A DNA stretch of 22,882 nt from a virus. Within the stretch, counting starts at the first letter, position 1. The number at the start of each line of letters is the position of its first letter. Shown in pieces: positions 1 through 5,346 of the stretch. Where the stretch lies: positions 1-22,882 of IMG/VR virus record IMGVR_UViG_3300042352_000626. One strand, 5' to 3'. The notes beneath the pieces are model-generated. The model had not been told where the DNA came from and searched no databases. It saw nothing but the letters and a program-made list of their open reading frames with translations. The translations under genes were made by a program, and so were the position numbers.

Positions 1-837
1 CTCAAATCCAGTTTGTGGTGGTGTAACACTTGAATAAACACCTACAAAAGTTCCATCTAATAATTGTAATTCAAAATCACAATATCCATCAATTCCTTCT
101 ATTTTAATATCAAAAATAGGCGTTTCGCCTTCTTCATAGTAAAAAACAAATCCTCCACTAGTATAATCTTGATAAACTCTATCCAATGTATCATAAGACT
201 CTATCATACCATTGCAAGTAAAAACCGCTGGAGGTACTAATATTTCTGAGTCTATTTCGCTATAAATTGGTGGTACTACTACTATATTTCCATTTGGAGC
301 GTCTTTATATGTTAAAGACCTTTGTAATTTTTGCCTTTCTACAGTTAATTTTTGACTTGCACCATTACAATCTGTATATAAAAGTTCTTTGTTTGTTAAT
401 TTATAAACCTCTATAGTAGCTTGCAATAACAATGGAGCTTCCTCTGACAAAACTGAATCGTAAATATAAGCGTTTCCAGTTGTATTTATAGTGTTAAAAT
501 CATATTCAGAGCCATCTACCCAATAGATTTTATCTTTTGACAAAGCAATGTAAGGTTCAATCCCAACTGGTGTGCTATCGTGGTCTATCCTAGTCGCATT
601 TATTACTTTTATTTTTTGTGTCGAATCTAAATTTAATATATCAAAATCAATTATAGACACATATTGCCCACCAAAATTTGTATATCCATTACTTACTTCA
701 AAAGTATCTACTAGTTTATAATAATTTTCTTCTGATTGTATAGCTAATTCAGAACACGATGGGCTCAATTCTCCAAATTCGTCAGTTACATTTGAAACAC
801 CACTTGTATATGTATTTCCGTTTATAATTACACTCAT
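1..837 (-). CDS. Tail or fibre structural protein (3' end outside window)
   Basis: ATG 837 overlaps the upstream stop (ATGA), and the frame stays open for 279 codons to the window edge. The product begins MSVIINGNTYTSGVSNVTDE and is beta-rich with abundant Asn, Thr, Tyr and Asp (YEEGETPIFDIKIEGIDGYC, YDTLDRVYQDYTSGGFVFYY). There is no signal peptide or membrane segment. It is translationally coupled to the tail-hub-like protein, so a tail-tip, fibre or receptor-binding component is likely. The family is not recognised and the C-terminus is missing. Confidence 0.72.
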   Translation of the reverse strand, partial: MSVIINGNTYTSGVSNVTDEFGELSPSCSELAIQSEENYYKLVDTFEVSNGYTNFGGQYVSIIDFDILNLDSTQKIKVINATRIDHDSTPVGIEPYIALSKDKIYWVDGSEYDFNTINTTGNAYIYDSVLSEEAPLLLQATIEVYKLTNKELLYTDCNGASQKLTVERQKLQRSLTYKDAPNGNIVVVPPIYSEIDSEILVPPAVFTCNGMIESYDTLDRVYQDYTSGGFVFYYEEGETPIFDIKIEGIDGYCDFELQLLDGTFVGVYSSVTPPQTGFE

Positions 838-3125
838 AATATTTTACCAATTAATTTATATTTACAAACGCCTTCGCTCCAGTCCGCACTGACTATATTA
901 CCATAATAAGTATCGGCATCGACGTTCACTTGTATTGTATTATACCAGTTTTTTCTTAAATTAGAAAATTCTGTTATATTCATAGGTACAGAAAAATCAA
1001 TATAGTGTGGCACAAAGTCATCCTGTACATCAATATCATTTACTGTTATATCATTTGAAGCTCTTGTGAAACTTGGCAAATTTATGTAACCTATTCCATC
1101 ATTATAGCTTATTTCTTTTATATTATTTACATTTTTTTCTGTATTTAGATTGGTTTTGCCTTTATAAATACCAAATCCCCATTTATATTCGTGTCTTTTT
1201 AAGTTATAAAGACTTGAATATTTTCTATTTAATCCTAAATCATTTGCTTGATTTTGCTCATAAACAAGGTCTTTGCCTATTGTAGCAGTATTTCTATTGT
1301 CAGAAATAGTTGCCTTATCGCTATCTAATGAAATAATAAATAAACTATTGTCATATTCGTTATTTTCAGAGTCGCTACCAAGACTCAACGCTCTTTTTAT
1401 AATAAATTTTGATGCTATCCACTCACATACTTTTTGATATGTAGCTTTACCTTTTTGCACACCCTCAATTTGATATACATTTTTGCCGTGTAATTCTTCA
1501 TTTGTATCTTTAAAGTCTGCATAACCTATCTCAATAGCTTTATAAAGCATATTTTCAGCTATTGTTAAAGTTACGTCATCATATTCAAGTGAGTAAGTCT
1601 TAAATATATTATCTGTATAAAAATCCTCAATCGTTGCAAGTCTATATGTAGTGTTCAATGAATTATCATAAAAAATTCCCAATCCAAGACCAGTCATTTT
1701 TTCTAAATTATCAAAGAATTTTGAGGCCGTTAGTTTAAACTTATCTCTATTTGCTTTATTTCTTAAAATATCACCTCTAGTTAAATATAAGTCATCGTAT
1801 TTTGGCTCATTAAGTTCGTTATAATCAATTCCAACAAATAATTCATTTGCTATTGTAGATGCTTTGTAAGCACTTATTTTAGTAGATGCTGACTCTACGT
1901 CCGACATATTATTAAAAACTGAATTTGTTACGTTTTTATTAGTTATGTACTCAATATCAATAGTTCTATTTATATCAATTCCAATATCATTATATTGAAA
2001 TACAGCTACAGGTGTCCCAACAATATCATTTACTGTTTTTAAATCAAAAGAATATTGAATCCATAAACTATCTCCTTTTTCTATTGGTAATTCAATAATA
2101 TTGTTAAGAAATGGAGTTAATGGATTTACTAATGGAATACTTGTTAATCCAGTTCCTAATGGGTTTTGTGTTTTTACTGTATTACCACTTAATATTGTTA
2201 TTTTTGTATATTTTGGACTTTCGTATCTTCTACCTACTGTTATAATTTCTTTAAAATTTAATATTTGGCCTCTAAAATTTATACCTCCAACTGAAGTTAT
2301 TCCTAAAGCTGTACTGCCATTAGTTTCTATCTTTAAAATTCCATCTTCTAATTCATTTTTGAATATTTCGGTTGGCTCTGTTACGCTTACATATAAATCA
2401 ATATGATATTGTATAGGAATAGTTCTATCTGGATTTAATTCAATTCTTTCACCACTTGATATTCTAAAATAATCATTAGGCCCTAAAATTTGAACAGTTT
2501 CCGCTGTTAAAGTATTTCCAGTTTCAAGTTCATTTATAGTTGTATCTGTTCTTGGGTTAATTGCAACCCCAAAAATAGGTTGGGGAATACTTTGAAAAAT
2601 AGTAACACTACCATTCCATCTATAGTCAAAATCTACAGCATATAGTTGCCCATCTTCTTTATATGGCCTTTCCCTTAATGTACTTTTATTTGCGTGATAT
2701 TGATATTTAATATTTAAATTTCTTACATAAACATCCTCAGCATCGACTTCTGGTATTTCTTTTTCTACTTCTAAAAGGTCTTTTAAGTTACCTACTGCAT
2801 TATCCTCTACCAATCCAATCTGTATTGTTTCAGTAGTTTGTTTGTATTTTGAAAAATCTAATTTAAAAGTAAAGGCTGTTTCTATGTTATTGCAAGTTTC
2901 TGAAATAACAAGATAGCCAACGCCATCTACAAAAGCTCTCTCATATTCCGATTTTAAAGCATCATATCCACTACCACAATAAAATGTAAGGGTAACTTTG
3001 GCCTCTACTTTAAAACCATTATAAGGAACGTCGCGGTCATAACCTATCTGTATTTTATCCAAGCCATCTGGTTGGTCTAAAAAATCTATATTATTTCCGT
3101 TTATGTTTAATTCGACTAATTGCAT
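834..3125 (-). CDS. Large tail protein, probable tail-tip/hub component, 763 aa
   Basis: This gene encodes 763 residues, almost entirely beta-rich with many Asn/Thr/Asp turns (MQLVELNINGNNIDFLDQPD, KVEAKVTLTFYCGSGYDALK). The middle is helical (ISAYKASTIANELFVGIDYN, KFFDNLEKMTGLGLGIFYDN), and a C-terminal strand region ends WSEGVCKYKLIGKIL. It is the first structural gene after the tape measure once the cassette is set aside, where long-tailed phages encode distal-tail and hub proteins. I cannot point to a specific domain, so the role is from position. The stop overlaps the next ATG (ATGA). Confidence 0.7.
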   Translation of the reverse strand: MQLVELNINGNNIDFLDQPDGLDKIQIGYDRDVPYNGFKVEAKVTLTFYCGSGYDALKSEYERAFVDGVGYLVISETCNNIETAFTFKLDFSKYKQTTETIQIGLVEDNAVGNLKDLLEVEKEIPEVDAEDVYVRNLNIKYQYHANKSTLRERPYKEDGQLYAVDFDYRWNGSVTIFQSIPQPIFGVAINPRTDTTINELETGNTLTAETVQILGPNDYFRISSGERIELNPDRTIPIQYHIDLYVSVTEPTEIFKNELEDGILKIETNGSTALGITSVGGINFRGQILNFKEIITVGRRYESPKYTKITILSGNTVKTQNPLGTGLTSIPLVNPLTPFLNNIIELPIEKGDSLWIQYSFDLKTVNDIVGTPVAVFQYNDIGIDINRTIDIEYITNKNVTNSVFNNMSDVESASTKISAYKASTIANELFVGIDYNELNEPKYDDLYLTRGDILRNKANRDKFKLTASKFFDNLEKMTGLGLGIFYDNSLNTTYRLATIEDFYTDNIFKTYSLEYDDVTLTIAENMLYKAIEIGYADFKDTNEELHGKNVYQIEGVQKGKATYQKVCEWIASKFIIKRALSLGSDSENNEYDNSLFIISLDSDKATISDNRNTATIGKDLVYEQNQANDLGLNRKYSSLYNLKRHEYKWGFGIYKGKTNLNTEKNVNNIKEISYNDGIGYINLPSFTRASNDITVNDIDVQDDFVPHYIDFSVPMNITEFSNLRKNWYNTIQVNVDADTYYGNIVSADWSEGVCKYKLIGKIL

Positions 3126-3129
3126 TGTG

Positions 3130-3137
3130 CAAATTTA
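3130..3137 (-). promoter_or_regulatory. -7 element TAAATTTG, possible leaderless tail promoter
   Basis: TAAATTTG (3137-3130) matches TAnnTTTG and ends 4 bases before ATG 3125 (TTTGCACAATG), as at 13310. This would restart transcription of the tail genes past the two terminators and the cassette. No TTG is seen at the expected -33 position. Confidence 0.5.
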
Positions 3138-3520
3138 ATCATTTTTTTACTATTTTTTTATTTTATTTCATTATTGAGCATAGAAATCCTATTACTTCCT
3201 AGAACTATAACTTTGTTTTAAATTAAAAATATAAATTAAAAACAAGAATAATTTTAAAAAGTTTTTGGTAAAGTTGCTAAAACCTACCTAGCAATTAAAG
3301 CATTTGTGCTTCCTACCTCATTCCAAGGTATGTACATAGAACTACAAGCTGTACATTTTTCACTCACTACATTTTCCTTTCGGGTTCTAGTCGCTAGTTG
3401 TTAAGGATAAAACAGAGCTAGACTTTTATATAGTGTCTTTAATTACTACTTTATTTTATATTCTAAATCTATTTAAACAATTTTTGAATGGTATTGAGTA
3501 GAACCTTAAATTTAAAGCAT
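3138..3520 (-). other. Non-coding island with consecutive hairpins (candidate structured RNA or recombination element)
   Basis: No convincing gene lies here. Four hairpins follow one another at 3274-3356: ATGTAC/GTACAT (arms 3330-3335 and 3351-3356), TACCT/AGGTA (3314-3330), AAGCA/TGCTT (3298-3311) and TTGCTA/TAGCAA (3274-3294). About 3270-3425 is visibly richer in G and C than the flanks. CTAG occurs several times, and TAGAACTA is repeated directly at 3200 and 3337. Both strands have ATG-less open stretches of about 35-45 codons here. Strand is given as minus to match the neighbours; it is not established. Confidence 0.5.
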
Positions 3521-3555
3521 AAAAAAAGCCTATCAAAGGTAGAGCTTCAATAGGC
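3521..3555 (-). terminator. Rho-independent terminator closing the cassette
   Basis: On the minus strand GCCTATTGAAG (3555-3545) pairs with CTTTGATAGGC (3538-3528), with two wobble pairs and a 6-base loop. Seven T follow (3527-3521). It ends transcription from the cassette and separates it from the tail genes downstream. Confidence 0.88.
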
Positions 3556-3621
3556 GTTATAAAAAAAGACTTAAACAAAGTCGAATTTTAAAATCATTAT
3601 CTCTACTCTACTAAAGATTTG

Positions 3622-3629
3622 CAAAGATA
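3622..3629 (-). promoter_or_regulatory. Orphan -7 element TATCTTTG after the ParB-like gene
   Basis: TATCTTTG (3629-3622) is a perfect match to TAnnTTTG, just past the ParB-like stop at 3640. The -33 position reads TTA rather than TTG. A transcript from here would end at the terminator at 3521-3555, giving an RNA of roughly 90 bases without a clear open frame. Confidence 0.4.
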
Positions 3630-3639
3630 ATACTTTTTT

Positions 3640-4389
3640 TTAATATCTTAAATTTATTTTTTCTCTTCTTCTAAAATTATAAATTTCCTCAATTAAAGCT
3701 ATGTATTGGCTAGAATTTACACAATCTACTAACTGGTTCTGCTGGTATTGTAATTTTTGTATAAACTCATCAAAATTAAAGTTTTTATTTTTAAATAAAC
3801 TAATCATTGCATATACAAAAGCTCTTCTTTTATATCCTTTGTAATATTTAGATATTAATTCTATTTTTTGTGCCATATTGCAACATTCGCTATAATTAAC
3901 TACTTTGAAATTTCCTTTAAAAAATTCTTTCATATTGTCTGTCTTTACATATATGTTACCTCCAGATAATATACTTACATTTTCTCTTGTACCAAATCCA
4001 TATCTTTGTTTAAAATTTCTATAAAGAATATAGTCAGAATAACCTAGTTTACAATATGCCTCCAAATAGTCATCAGCACTCCAAGTTTTTGAATTTGCAT
4101 TTAATATATGTACTTCGTTAAGGCCATAACCTTGGCAAATAACATAGTTTAAAGGTAAGTTTAATTCTTTAATAATTTCAAACCTGTGTTGTCCATCAAT
4201 TATCTCATACTTCTCATTAACTGTAATGATTGTAAATAAATAATTATCTGACATTGATTTTTTTAATCTATTAATATGTAATAGATTTTTATTCCTATTT
4301 CCATCTATTGATTTAAATAGTGAATAATCAGTTGTAGTGTGAACTTGGTTGTCTTTTTTTACGATTGGTTCATTTTTAAATTGGTTCAT
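3640..4389 (-). CDS. ParB/sulfiredoxin-fold (ParB-like nuclease domain) protein
   Basis: I chose ATG 4389 (249 residues), because the longer frame from 4536 runs through the lipoprotein gene, while 4389 has an A-rich leader matching the one before the lipoprotein. Residues about 15-90 form the ParB/Srx domain: a DYSLFKSIDGNRNKNLLHIN segment (VxxLxxxxxNR-like), then YEIIDGQHRFEIIKELNLP, with the conserved (I)DGQHR motif. The remaining 150 residues are helical and basic, with the motif NSKTWSADDYLEAYCKLG just after the domain. Such phage proteins may bind DNA, hydrolyse CTP or nick DNA; none is proven here. It is the last gene of the cassette. Confidence 0.85.
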   Translation of the reverse strand: MNQFKNEPIVKKDNQVHTTTDYSLFKSIDGNRNKNLLHINRLKKSMSDNYLFTIITVNEKYEIIDGQHRFEIIKELNLPLNYVICQGYGLNEVHILNANSKTWSADDYLEAYCKLGYSDYILYRNFKQRYGFGTRENVSILSGGNIYVKTDNMKEFFKGNFKVVNYSECCNMAQKIELISKYYKGYKRRAFVYAMISLFKNKNFNFDEFIQKLQYQQNQLVDCVNSSQYIALIEEIYNFRRREKINLRY

Positions 4390-4420
4390 TTTTTTTAAAT
4401 TTAATTGGTTAATAATTTTT

Positions 4421-4600
4421 TTAAAATTTGCAACTTGGATATTTGCTTTTATATTTTTGTTGTATAATTTTAATTTTTTCAATATTACTTCCAGCGTGTT
4501 TAACTTCACCTTCGTATTTTTTAAAAACTTCTGCACAATTTACTTCTTCTTTTGAGCAGCTTGCTAATAAAATAGCAGCAAATAATAATAATTTTTTCAT
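4421..4600 (-). CDS. Phage-encoded lipoprotein, 59 aa, probably surface-exported
   Basis: ATG 4600 to TAA 4421 encodes 59 residues. MKKLLLFAAILLASC is a textbook type II signal peptide with lipobox LAS-Cys15. After cleavage the mature protein starts Cys-Ser-Lys-Glu-Glu. Lys followed by two acidic residues just after the lipidated Cys matches the export signal that carries lipoproteins to the outer face of the outer membrane in Capnocytophaga and related flavobacteria. The mature part is 45 residues, with Cys22 and Cys57 free to form a disulphide. It lies between the zinc-finger and ParB-like genes, 10 bases after the former, with an A-rich leader before the ATG. Small phage lipoproteins often block receptors against superinfection; that role is inferred here. 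Confidence 0.85.
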   Translation of the reverse strand: MKKLLLFAAILLASCSKEEVNCAEVFKKYEGEVKHAGSNIEKIKIIQQKYKSKYPSCKF

Positions 4601-4610
4601 TTTTTTTAGT

Positions 4611-4802
4611 TTAATTTGTTAATAATTTATTTTTTAATCGGTATTGTTTTTGGTATTCTTTTTGATACTCTCTTATAATATCTTTGTTTTTTTCTTTATA
4701 TTCTTTTTGATGTTTTGCGTGGCATTGATTACAAATATTCCTAATTCTGCTAGCATAGTTATTTTTCTTAAATTCAATTTGACATTTAATACAAACTTTC
4801 AT
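4611..4802 (-). CDS. Small zinc-finger protein, 63 aa
   Basis: The 63 residues carry CIKC (Cys4, Cys7) and CNQC (Cys24, Cys27) with a following His (CHAKH). This four-cysteine zinc ribbon resembles the N-terminal knuckle of phage HNH and NinG-like proteins. The second half is a very basic, Tyr/Lys/Gln-repeating helix (YKEKNKDIIREYQKEYQKQY), suggesting nucleic-acid contact. No HNH catalytic residues are present, so this is a DNA- or RNA-binding module rather than a nuclease. Confidence 0.72.
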   Translation of the reverse strand: MKVCIKCQIEFKKNNYASRIRNICNQCHAKHQKEYKEKNKDIIREYQKEYQKQYRLKNKLLTN

Positions 4803-5022
4803 TATAAATTAATTTTTCAAGTTTATTGATAATATCCATTTGTTTTTTACTTACTAGTATAGCGTAGTCATTATCTTTAAATATATCTACATCTTTGCTA
4901 GTAATTTCAATTGTTTTTATATCTCCATTGCCATTCTTTGCAAGCTCAATTACTTTTGCAAAATCATCATCCCAAATTGCGTGGCACATTTCGCGTCCAG
5001 TTGCTATATGTATTTTATCCAT
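4786..5022 (-). CDS. Hypothetical cassette protein, 78 aa
   Basis: Function unknown. The 78 residues show an alternating helix/strand pattern: MDKIHIATGREMCHAIWDDD, FAKVIELAKNGNGDIKTIEI, DVDIFKDNDYAILVSKKQMD, and an amphipathic C-terminal helix. The acidic WDDDFAKVIELAKNG stretch recalls small alpha/beta regulatory folds, but I cannot name one. It overlaps the next gene by 17 bases and so is co-translated with it. Confidence 0.68.
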   Translation of the reverse strand: MDKIHIATGREMCHAIWDDDFAKVIELAKNGNGDIKTIEITSKDVDIFKDNDYAILVSKKQMDIINKLEKLIYNESLY

Positions 5023-5046
5023 TTTTTTGTTTATTTTAAAAAGTTT

Positions 5047-5283
5047 TTAATATCTTCCATATTTTGCTTTTTGCAATTTATCTTGTAGGTTCCTAACTTC
5101 ATTTAAAAGTTCTTTTGATATACCATAAGTATTTCCATAATCTTCAAACTCAATACGATTTATATGAGATAAATTATTAAGAACATTTATTGCGTTTTCA
5201 ATTGCAATATCTTGTTTAGCAATAACTAGTACTTGATTAATTGCTACATTATTTTCTTTTGTTACTAACTTTGAAATTTCCAT
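5047..5283 (-). CDS. Hypothetical cassette protein, 78 aa
   Basis: I chose ATG 5283, because the in-frame ATG at 5346 lies in the -33 promoter element. The 78 residues begin MEISKLVTKENNVAINQVLV, then a helical middle (AIENAINVLNNLSHINRIEF) and an end rich in Lys/Arg (LRDLQ-like helix LNEVRNLQDKLQKAKYGRY). It is soluble, with no motif recognised. It is the first gene of the five-gene cassette between the tape measure and tail genes, directly downstream of an early-type promoter. Confidence 0.7.
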   Translation of the reverse strand: MEISKLVTKENNVAINQVLVIAKQDIAIENAINVLNNLSHINRIEFEDYGNTYGISKELLNEVRNLQDKLQKAKYGRY

Positions 5284-5316
5284 TTTTTTATTATTTAGTT
5301 GTTTAAAATTGTACTG

Positions 5317-5346
5317 CAAAGATAATAGGTATTTTACAAATGTCAA
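5317..5346 (-). promoter_or_regulatory. Cassette promoter with early-type palindromic -33 region
   Basis: TTGACA (5346-5341) and TATCTTTG (5324-5317) lie 19 bases apart counted from the TTG, on the minus strand. The inverted repeat TTGACA-TT-TGTAAA (5333-5346) overlaps the -33 element and is nearly the same as those at 20020-20033 and 21500-21513. It sits 33 bases upstream of ATG 5283. Confidence 0.85.

Follow-up and report, generated by a model that had tools for sequence, protein, structure and literature searches.

What is a non-coding stretch doing between a gene cassette and a presumed tail gene in the genome of a virus? The stretch in question lies on the minus strand of an IMG/VR virus record, whose entire length of 22,882 bases is called the window here. 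The cassette occupies 3640-5346, and the presumed tail gene (834-3125), which has no family match, encodes 763 amino acids. A preliminary description, made from the sequence, had placed the non-coding island at 3138-3520, between a "cassette terminator" and the tail genes, and had offered a structured RNA, a recombination site or a gene relic as possible explanations. Comparison across relatives delineates an RNA gene of about 430 nt on the minus strand, running roughly from 3617 to 3187 and composed of a Bacteroidetes promoter box, a leader, a terminator-like hairpin and a compact core. The interval proposed earlier was thus too short, the unit reaching as far as the promoter box at 3622-3629, and the hairpin that had been assigned to the cassette (3528-3555) is part of the RNA unit, because it is located between the RNA promoter and the core in all copies. 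The order of the elements, i.e. TAnnTTTG box, leader, hairpin with U run, AT-rich linker and core, is identical in six of six copies. The sequence comparisons strongly support the view that the island is a conserved structured RNA gene of phages with Flavobacterium-type hosts, which we infer to be transcribed.

Besides the window, four further copies were found: a same-locus relative (L003), two metagenomic phage loci (L019 and L026) and a copy in a bacterial genome (L073). L003, which together with L014 was reached through the presumed tail protein and represents one close relative, is identical to the window at 173 of 181 positions of the RNA core, as against 382 of 424 positions of the adjoining coding sequence. 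L019 and L026 were found with core patterns, at positions unrelated to that of the window, and scored 190-223 bits with the covariance model (nhmmer E-value 1e-77 for L026). In L019 the RNA precedes a GIY-YIG/NUMOD3 homing endonuclease gene (L019 1404-2129, minus strand), and in L026 it is located between a spanin-like gene, which follows a lysozyme-like gene, and a phosphoesterase-like gene; the names of the L026 neighbours are our own reading, the family search having matched none of them. A covariance model built from the four phage copies (window, L003, L019, L026) was run on 398 genomes of one genus, probably Flavobacterium, which had been chosen for its many Flavo-1 RNAs. It gave one strong match (42.9 bits, E-value 6.8e-8 for that genome) to a sequence that the model had not seen. 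This copy, L073, follows genes for a tyrosine recombinase and an HTH protein and is located at the end of a contig of a probable Flavobacterium genome.

The cultured Flavobacterium phage FL-1 was matched by the five-sequence model over helices P2-P3 only (25.7 bits, E-value 1.1e-4 for that record), in an unannotated 1.06-kb gap after the terminase gene. L073 and FL-1 share the promoter box, the leader-loop helix described below and the U run. These 5' features lie outside the covariance model, therefore their recurrence supports homology independently, and FL-1 probably holds a sixth copy, which could be aligned in part. In the FL-1 gap (KY421186.2, 3138-4200; L080 1200-2200) there are several TAnnTTTG-like boxes, and behind each of them stands a terminator-like hairpin (L080 1230-1266, 1320-1350, 1611-1638 and about 1770-1815). 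These signals give the gap the appearance of a tandem array of genes for phage non-coding RNAs, the last of which would be the homolog of the window RNA.

Four other cultured flavobacterial phages gave no match with the model, and strictly filtered searches of a sample of about 950 distinct Bacteroidia/Flavobacteriaceae genomes yielded one convincing copy only; with such filters these large searches may have missed chromosomal copies. Several candidates were discarded. When the core was compared with cultured phages and plasmids by blastn, only chance matches were returned, and a 22-mer shared with Cellulophaga phage phi19:1 belongs to an unrelated terminator tail. The pattern matches among L004-L058 other than L014, L019 and L026 were due to chance, including all of the genome-contig matches L043-L053. 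L066 (G275:C483:20931-21039), which carries CCTTGGAATAAGG and lies between chromosomal genes in the genome of another member of the Bacteroidia, scored 27.7 bits; we treat it as a probable chance match because it gained nothing with the improved model (23.2 bits). Searches centred on the taxa of L053 and G250 yielded nothing further.

The 3' core domain (3268-3448, minus strand; the part of the RNA modelled as R1/R2) can be folded into seven helices, P1-P7. P1 is formed by 3442-3448 and 3289-3295 and is in competition with a local hairpin; P2 pairs 3428-3435 with 3365-3372, with double changes at four of its eight pairs. The P3 hairpin (3393-3423), with its CUC/A internal loop, carries the near-unique signature CNNG-CUC-UGNN...NNCA-A-CNNG, which in 0.86 Mb of sequence was found in the six copies and in two poorer matches. 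It is followed by a small CCGAAAGG hairpin with a GAAA loop (3376-3383), identified in the alignment of the relatives. The four consecutive short hairpins noticed in the preliminary description correspond to P7, P6, P5 and P4 (3268-3355, minus strand), and all four recur in relatives, mostly with compensating changes: double changes affect four of six pairs in P4 (3331-3355) and four of seven in P7 (3268-3288), and P5 (3315-3329, ACCTTGGAATGAGGT) and P6 (3298-3311) are seen in the alignment of the relatives. The same description was right about the repeated motif TAGAACTA, which occurs exactly twice in the window (3200 and 3337), and about the enrichment of CTAG (five in the 383 bases vs. 35 in 22,882). 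A raised GC content is found for 3274-3430 (36%), but not for 3138-3520 as a whole (25%), which is below the window mean of 28%.

In an alignment of the four phage sequences that had not been fitted to the model, double changes with pairing kept were seen at six of 50 pairs. When L073 was added, 18 of 49 pairs were compensatory in the five sequences, a number reached in none of 500 shuffles and to be compared with 0-2 in controls with slid partners, and 94.7% of the cells in this five-sequence alignment were able to pair vs. 26-41% with the partners slid; with the FL-1 fragment the number of compensatory pairs rose to 22. It must be noted that the five-sequence alignment and the later one were fitted to the model, hence these figures lean towards structure. 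The folding energy of the core is ordinary (z = -0.85, minus strand) and was rejected as evidence for structure. What exceeds chance is conservation and covariation, not energy.

The segment that separates P3 from the GAAA hairpin (CTAGAAC, 3384-3390) forms a further helix, not included in the covariance model, with GTTCTAG at 3199-3205. The latter is followed by GGAAGTAATAGGA and belongs to a 3' motif (3187-3205, minus strand), which marks the approximate 3' end of the conserved RNA; no clear terminator was found at this end in the window. The helix is exchanged between relatives, CTAGAAC:GTTCTAG being replaced by CCAGAAC:GTTCTGG in L026 and by CGCATC:GATGCG in L073. By this comparison, the helix to the 3' motif is a long-range pseudoknot. 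Compensatory changes, the exchanged long-range helix and an architecture kept in unrelated contexts all argue for the first of the explanations offered earlier, the structured RNA. Covariation beyond chance is found together with an absence of coding constraint, as expected for a structured non-coding RNA.

The 5' part of the unit begins with a Bacteroidetes -7 promoter box (TATCTTTG, 3622-3629, minus strand), which predicts a transcription start at about 3617. TAnnTTTG is the sigma-A -7 consensus of Flavobacterium (PMC9723704). A box of this form occupies the same place before the RNA in all copies, its letters varying (TATCTTTG, TACTTTTG, TAGATTTG, TACATTTG), as would be expected for an independent transcription unit; several copies have a weak -33 element. 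The leader contains an element, alpha (GTAGAGT..., 3600-3611), and a small hairpin (GACTT..AAGTC, 3568-3582) followed by a U run, similar small hairpins being present in relatives. The terminator-like hairpin (3528-3555) is followed by a U7 run (3521-3527), and its loop carries alpha' (3539-3545), to which alpha is complementary. The stem of this hairpin covaries (GCCTA/TAGGC, GCCAG/TTGGC, CCCAA/TTGGG, ACCCT/AGGGT) and the U run is kept in six copies. The linker has a conserved motif, GGTTCTACTCAATACC (3490-3505), which is near-invariant in the phage copies and has a related sequence, TTTTCAACTGCGTACCA, in L073; inspection by eye revealed no conserved partner of the linker motif GGTTCTACTC.

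In each copy the leader can pair with the loop of its own hairpin: GTAGAG:CTCTAC, GGGACAAG:CTTGTCCC, GTGGAGCTC:GAGTTCCAC, GGGAGGA:TCCTCCC, CGGTGTGGTT:AACCACACCG and, in FL-1, GGGCTGAA:TTCAGCCC, for which 12 of 2000 shuffles gave an energy as low. The sequences of leader and loop are largely replaced between lineages and their complementarity is kept. We evaluated this pairing by duplex energies, which replaced an initial, G-U-tolerant complementarity test that was uninformative. The summed energy of the leader-loop duplexes was -93.6 kcal/mol vs. -39.9 kcal/mol (sd 5.6) with shuffled leaders, none of 1000 shuffles reaching the observed value, and by the same measure the own leader-loop pairs were better than nearly all cross pairs. 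The helix is 10 bp long in L073 and 8 bp in FL-1, and that of the window is the weakest of the copies (-10 kcal/mol, shuffles 3.9%). Folds were predicted for five copies: four of them prefer the leader-loop pairing to the terminator stem, and the window prefers the terminator. The complementarity points to a terminator switch that is built into the RNA, or to a pseudoknot.

Could the island be the remnant of a gene, or a small gene? An open stretch containing EKCTACSSMYIPWNEVGSTN had been pointed out on the minus strand and does exist: it is a frame of 27 codons (3367-3284) with a GTG start, a CxxC pair and an AAAGGA stretch upstream, and it is open in the window and in L003. It is shifted by a one-base deletion in L019, meets a stop after eight codons from the same GTG in L026 and has no counterpart in L073. 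Moreover, most of the differences between the window and L019 within the frame change amino acids, and two of them form one compensated base pair; the differences follow base pairs, not codons. The protein-coding reading was rejected on the loss of the frame across relatives, and we consider it, as well as the gene relic proposed earlier, extremely improbable.

A similarly negligible probability is assigned to an integron- or transposon-type recombination site that recruits the cassette, a role for which the many small hairpins and the adjoining variable edge of the cassette might speak. A segment of about 1.13 kb (3661-4796), coding for a ParB-like protein, a 59-aa lipoprotein-like ORF and a 63-aa HNH/EndoVII-like zinc-finger protein, is missing from L003, and its edge is about 30 bases from the RNA promoter box. 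The cassette-edge position emphasized in the preliminary description is therefore real in that the edge abuts the RNA promoter, but the RNA is independent of the cassette: L003 has the RNA without most of the cassette (about 1.1 kb), and elsewhere the contexts are unrelated. Nor is the island a dispersed multi-copy element. The record holds one copy, the only other match in it being AT-rich and of 36 bits, and further copies occur only in other genomes. Repeated copies at cassette borders, typical of integron attC sites or transposon ends, were found neither here nor in the further genomes, and no recombinase cutting at this site was seen. The signals are strand-specific (promoter, U run, alpha-loop pairing, G-U pairs in the helices), which also argues against a DNA site.

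The main rival of an independent RNA is a cis-acting attenuator or riboswitch-like leader, which would sense a signal and control read-through into downstream late genes, in the window into the presumed tail gene. The succession of a promoter and a terminator that has to compete with another pairing is the classic layout of an attenuator, and as in antiterminator-type attenuators an early RNA segment is complementary to a terminator hairpin that is followed by a U run. In phage contexts the RNA is directly upstream of a gene on the same strand, and no 3' terminator separates the core from the tail gene in the window. However, a conserved regulated gene, which an attenuator should have, is not seen: the genes that follow the RNA are unrelated to one another (a presumed tail gene, a GIY-YIG endonuclease gene, a phosphoesterase-like gene and, in FL-1, a gene for a hypothetical protein). 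The large core comes after the terminator hairpin, not before it. The terminator is internal to a non-coding RNA, whereas that of an attenuator precedes a single regulated gene. In L073 a possible hairpin with a U run, visible in the sequence but not called by the terminator scan, stands right after the 3' motif. In the window and in L026 the downstream gene has a promoter box of its own just before it, in the window a separate -7 box, TAAATTTG (3130-3137, minus strand), directly upstream of the tail gene. We infer transcription of the RNA as its own unit because the downstream genes differ and because of these separate boxes, and regard the attenuator as unlikely. The boxes in the window and in L026 (about 5240-5250) almost touch the downstream start codons, which suggests leaderless or near-leaderless phage transcripts.

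The presence of a GIY-YIG/NUMOD3 endonuclease gene directly after the RNA in L019, of related CxxC..CxxC HNH/EndoVII-like mini-proteins upstream of it in the window and L019, and of a cassette edge abutting the promoter raises the question whether the RNA is part of a mobile homing cassette, e.g. a degenerate self-splicing intron or the guide or target RNA of a homing nuclease. Group I introns are also pseudoknotted RNAs in phage DNA, but the window RNA is intergenic, as are all copies, with no interrupted gene, its helix order does not, in our reading, fit the P3-P8/P7 core, and neither a group I intron, nor HEARO, nor any other Rfam family matched significantly even at E 10. No obvious nuclease gene adjoins the RNA in L003, L026, L073 or FL-1. 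A homing origin thus appears quite improbable, though less so than the coding and recombination readings.

Rfam 15 at gathering score gave no family match in the window, L003, L019 or L026, and at E<=10 nothing significant was found in window 3100-3650 or in FL-1, GOLLD and ROOL being unlisted in both. It is instructive to compare the RNA with GOLLD and ROOL, which are phage- and prophage-borne non-coding RNAs with elaborate pseudoknotted folds; GOLLD resembles the window RNA also in that its 5' part is variable and its 3' part conserved (PMC12286853). The window RNA shares with them its phage location, non-coding nature and pseudoknotted fold. It differs in size (about 430 nt vs. over 800 for many GOLLD RNAs), in having no Rfam match, in its own leader-terminator-loop pairing and in its flavobacterial hosts, and whereas GOLLD and ROOL are often near tRNA genes, there is no tRNA gene in the window. 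By the covariance-model tests it is not a member of either family. Our searches of the open-access literature turned up no earlier account of such an RNA from flavophages.

Taken together, the sequence evidence makes an independent, trans-acting structured phage RNA, with predicted expression and function, the most likely explanation. In the reading that we favour, and consider probable, the island is a stand-alone non-coding RNA gene with its own promoter, a switchable terminator and a trans-acting core. The gene would be transcribed from a sigma-A-type Bacteroidetes promoter that belongs to it. The initial 100 nt or so would act as a switchable terminator, in which alpha pairs with the terminator loop; this pairing could prevent the hairpin from ending transcription, or could hold the hairpin as a pseudoknot. 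If the polymerase reads through, the 3' domain would fold into a compact multi-helix structure locked by the long-range pseudoknot, and would act in trans, on a putative target, during infection. More tentatively, as a possibility to which we give somewhat less than even weight, the RNA may represent an undescribed class of large Flavobacteriia phage RNA, whose 5' leader-terminator-loop pseudoknot would control its own completion and whose 3' domain would be a trans-acting machine in infection, such as a scaffold, an inhibitor of the host RNA polymerase or ribosome, or a ribozyme.

Only a few large structured RNAs have been described from phages, and most of these still lack an explanation. 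The present RNA is a candidate for a further class, in a group of hosts whose phages have yielded few described RNAs, and this class comes with a secondary structure and a pseudoknot backed by compensatory change. Because a probable copy is carried by the cultured phage FL-1, expression, structure and the effect of a knockout are open to immediate testing. The complementarity of leader and terminator loop points to an economical means by which an RNA may regulate its own completion.
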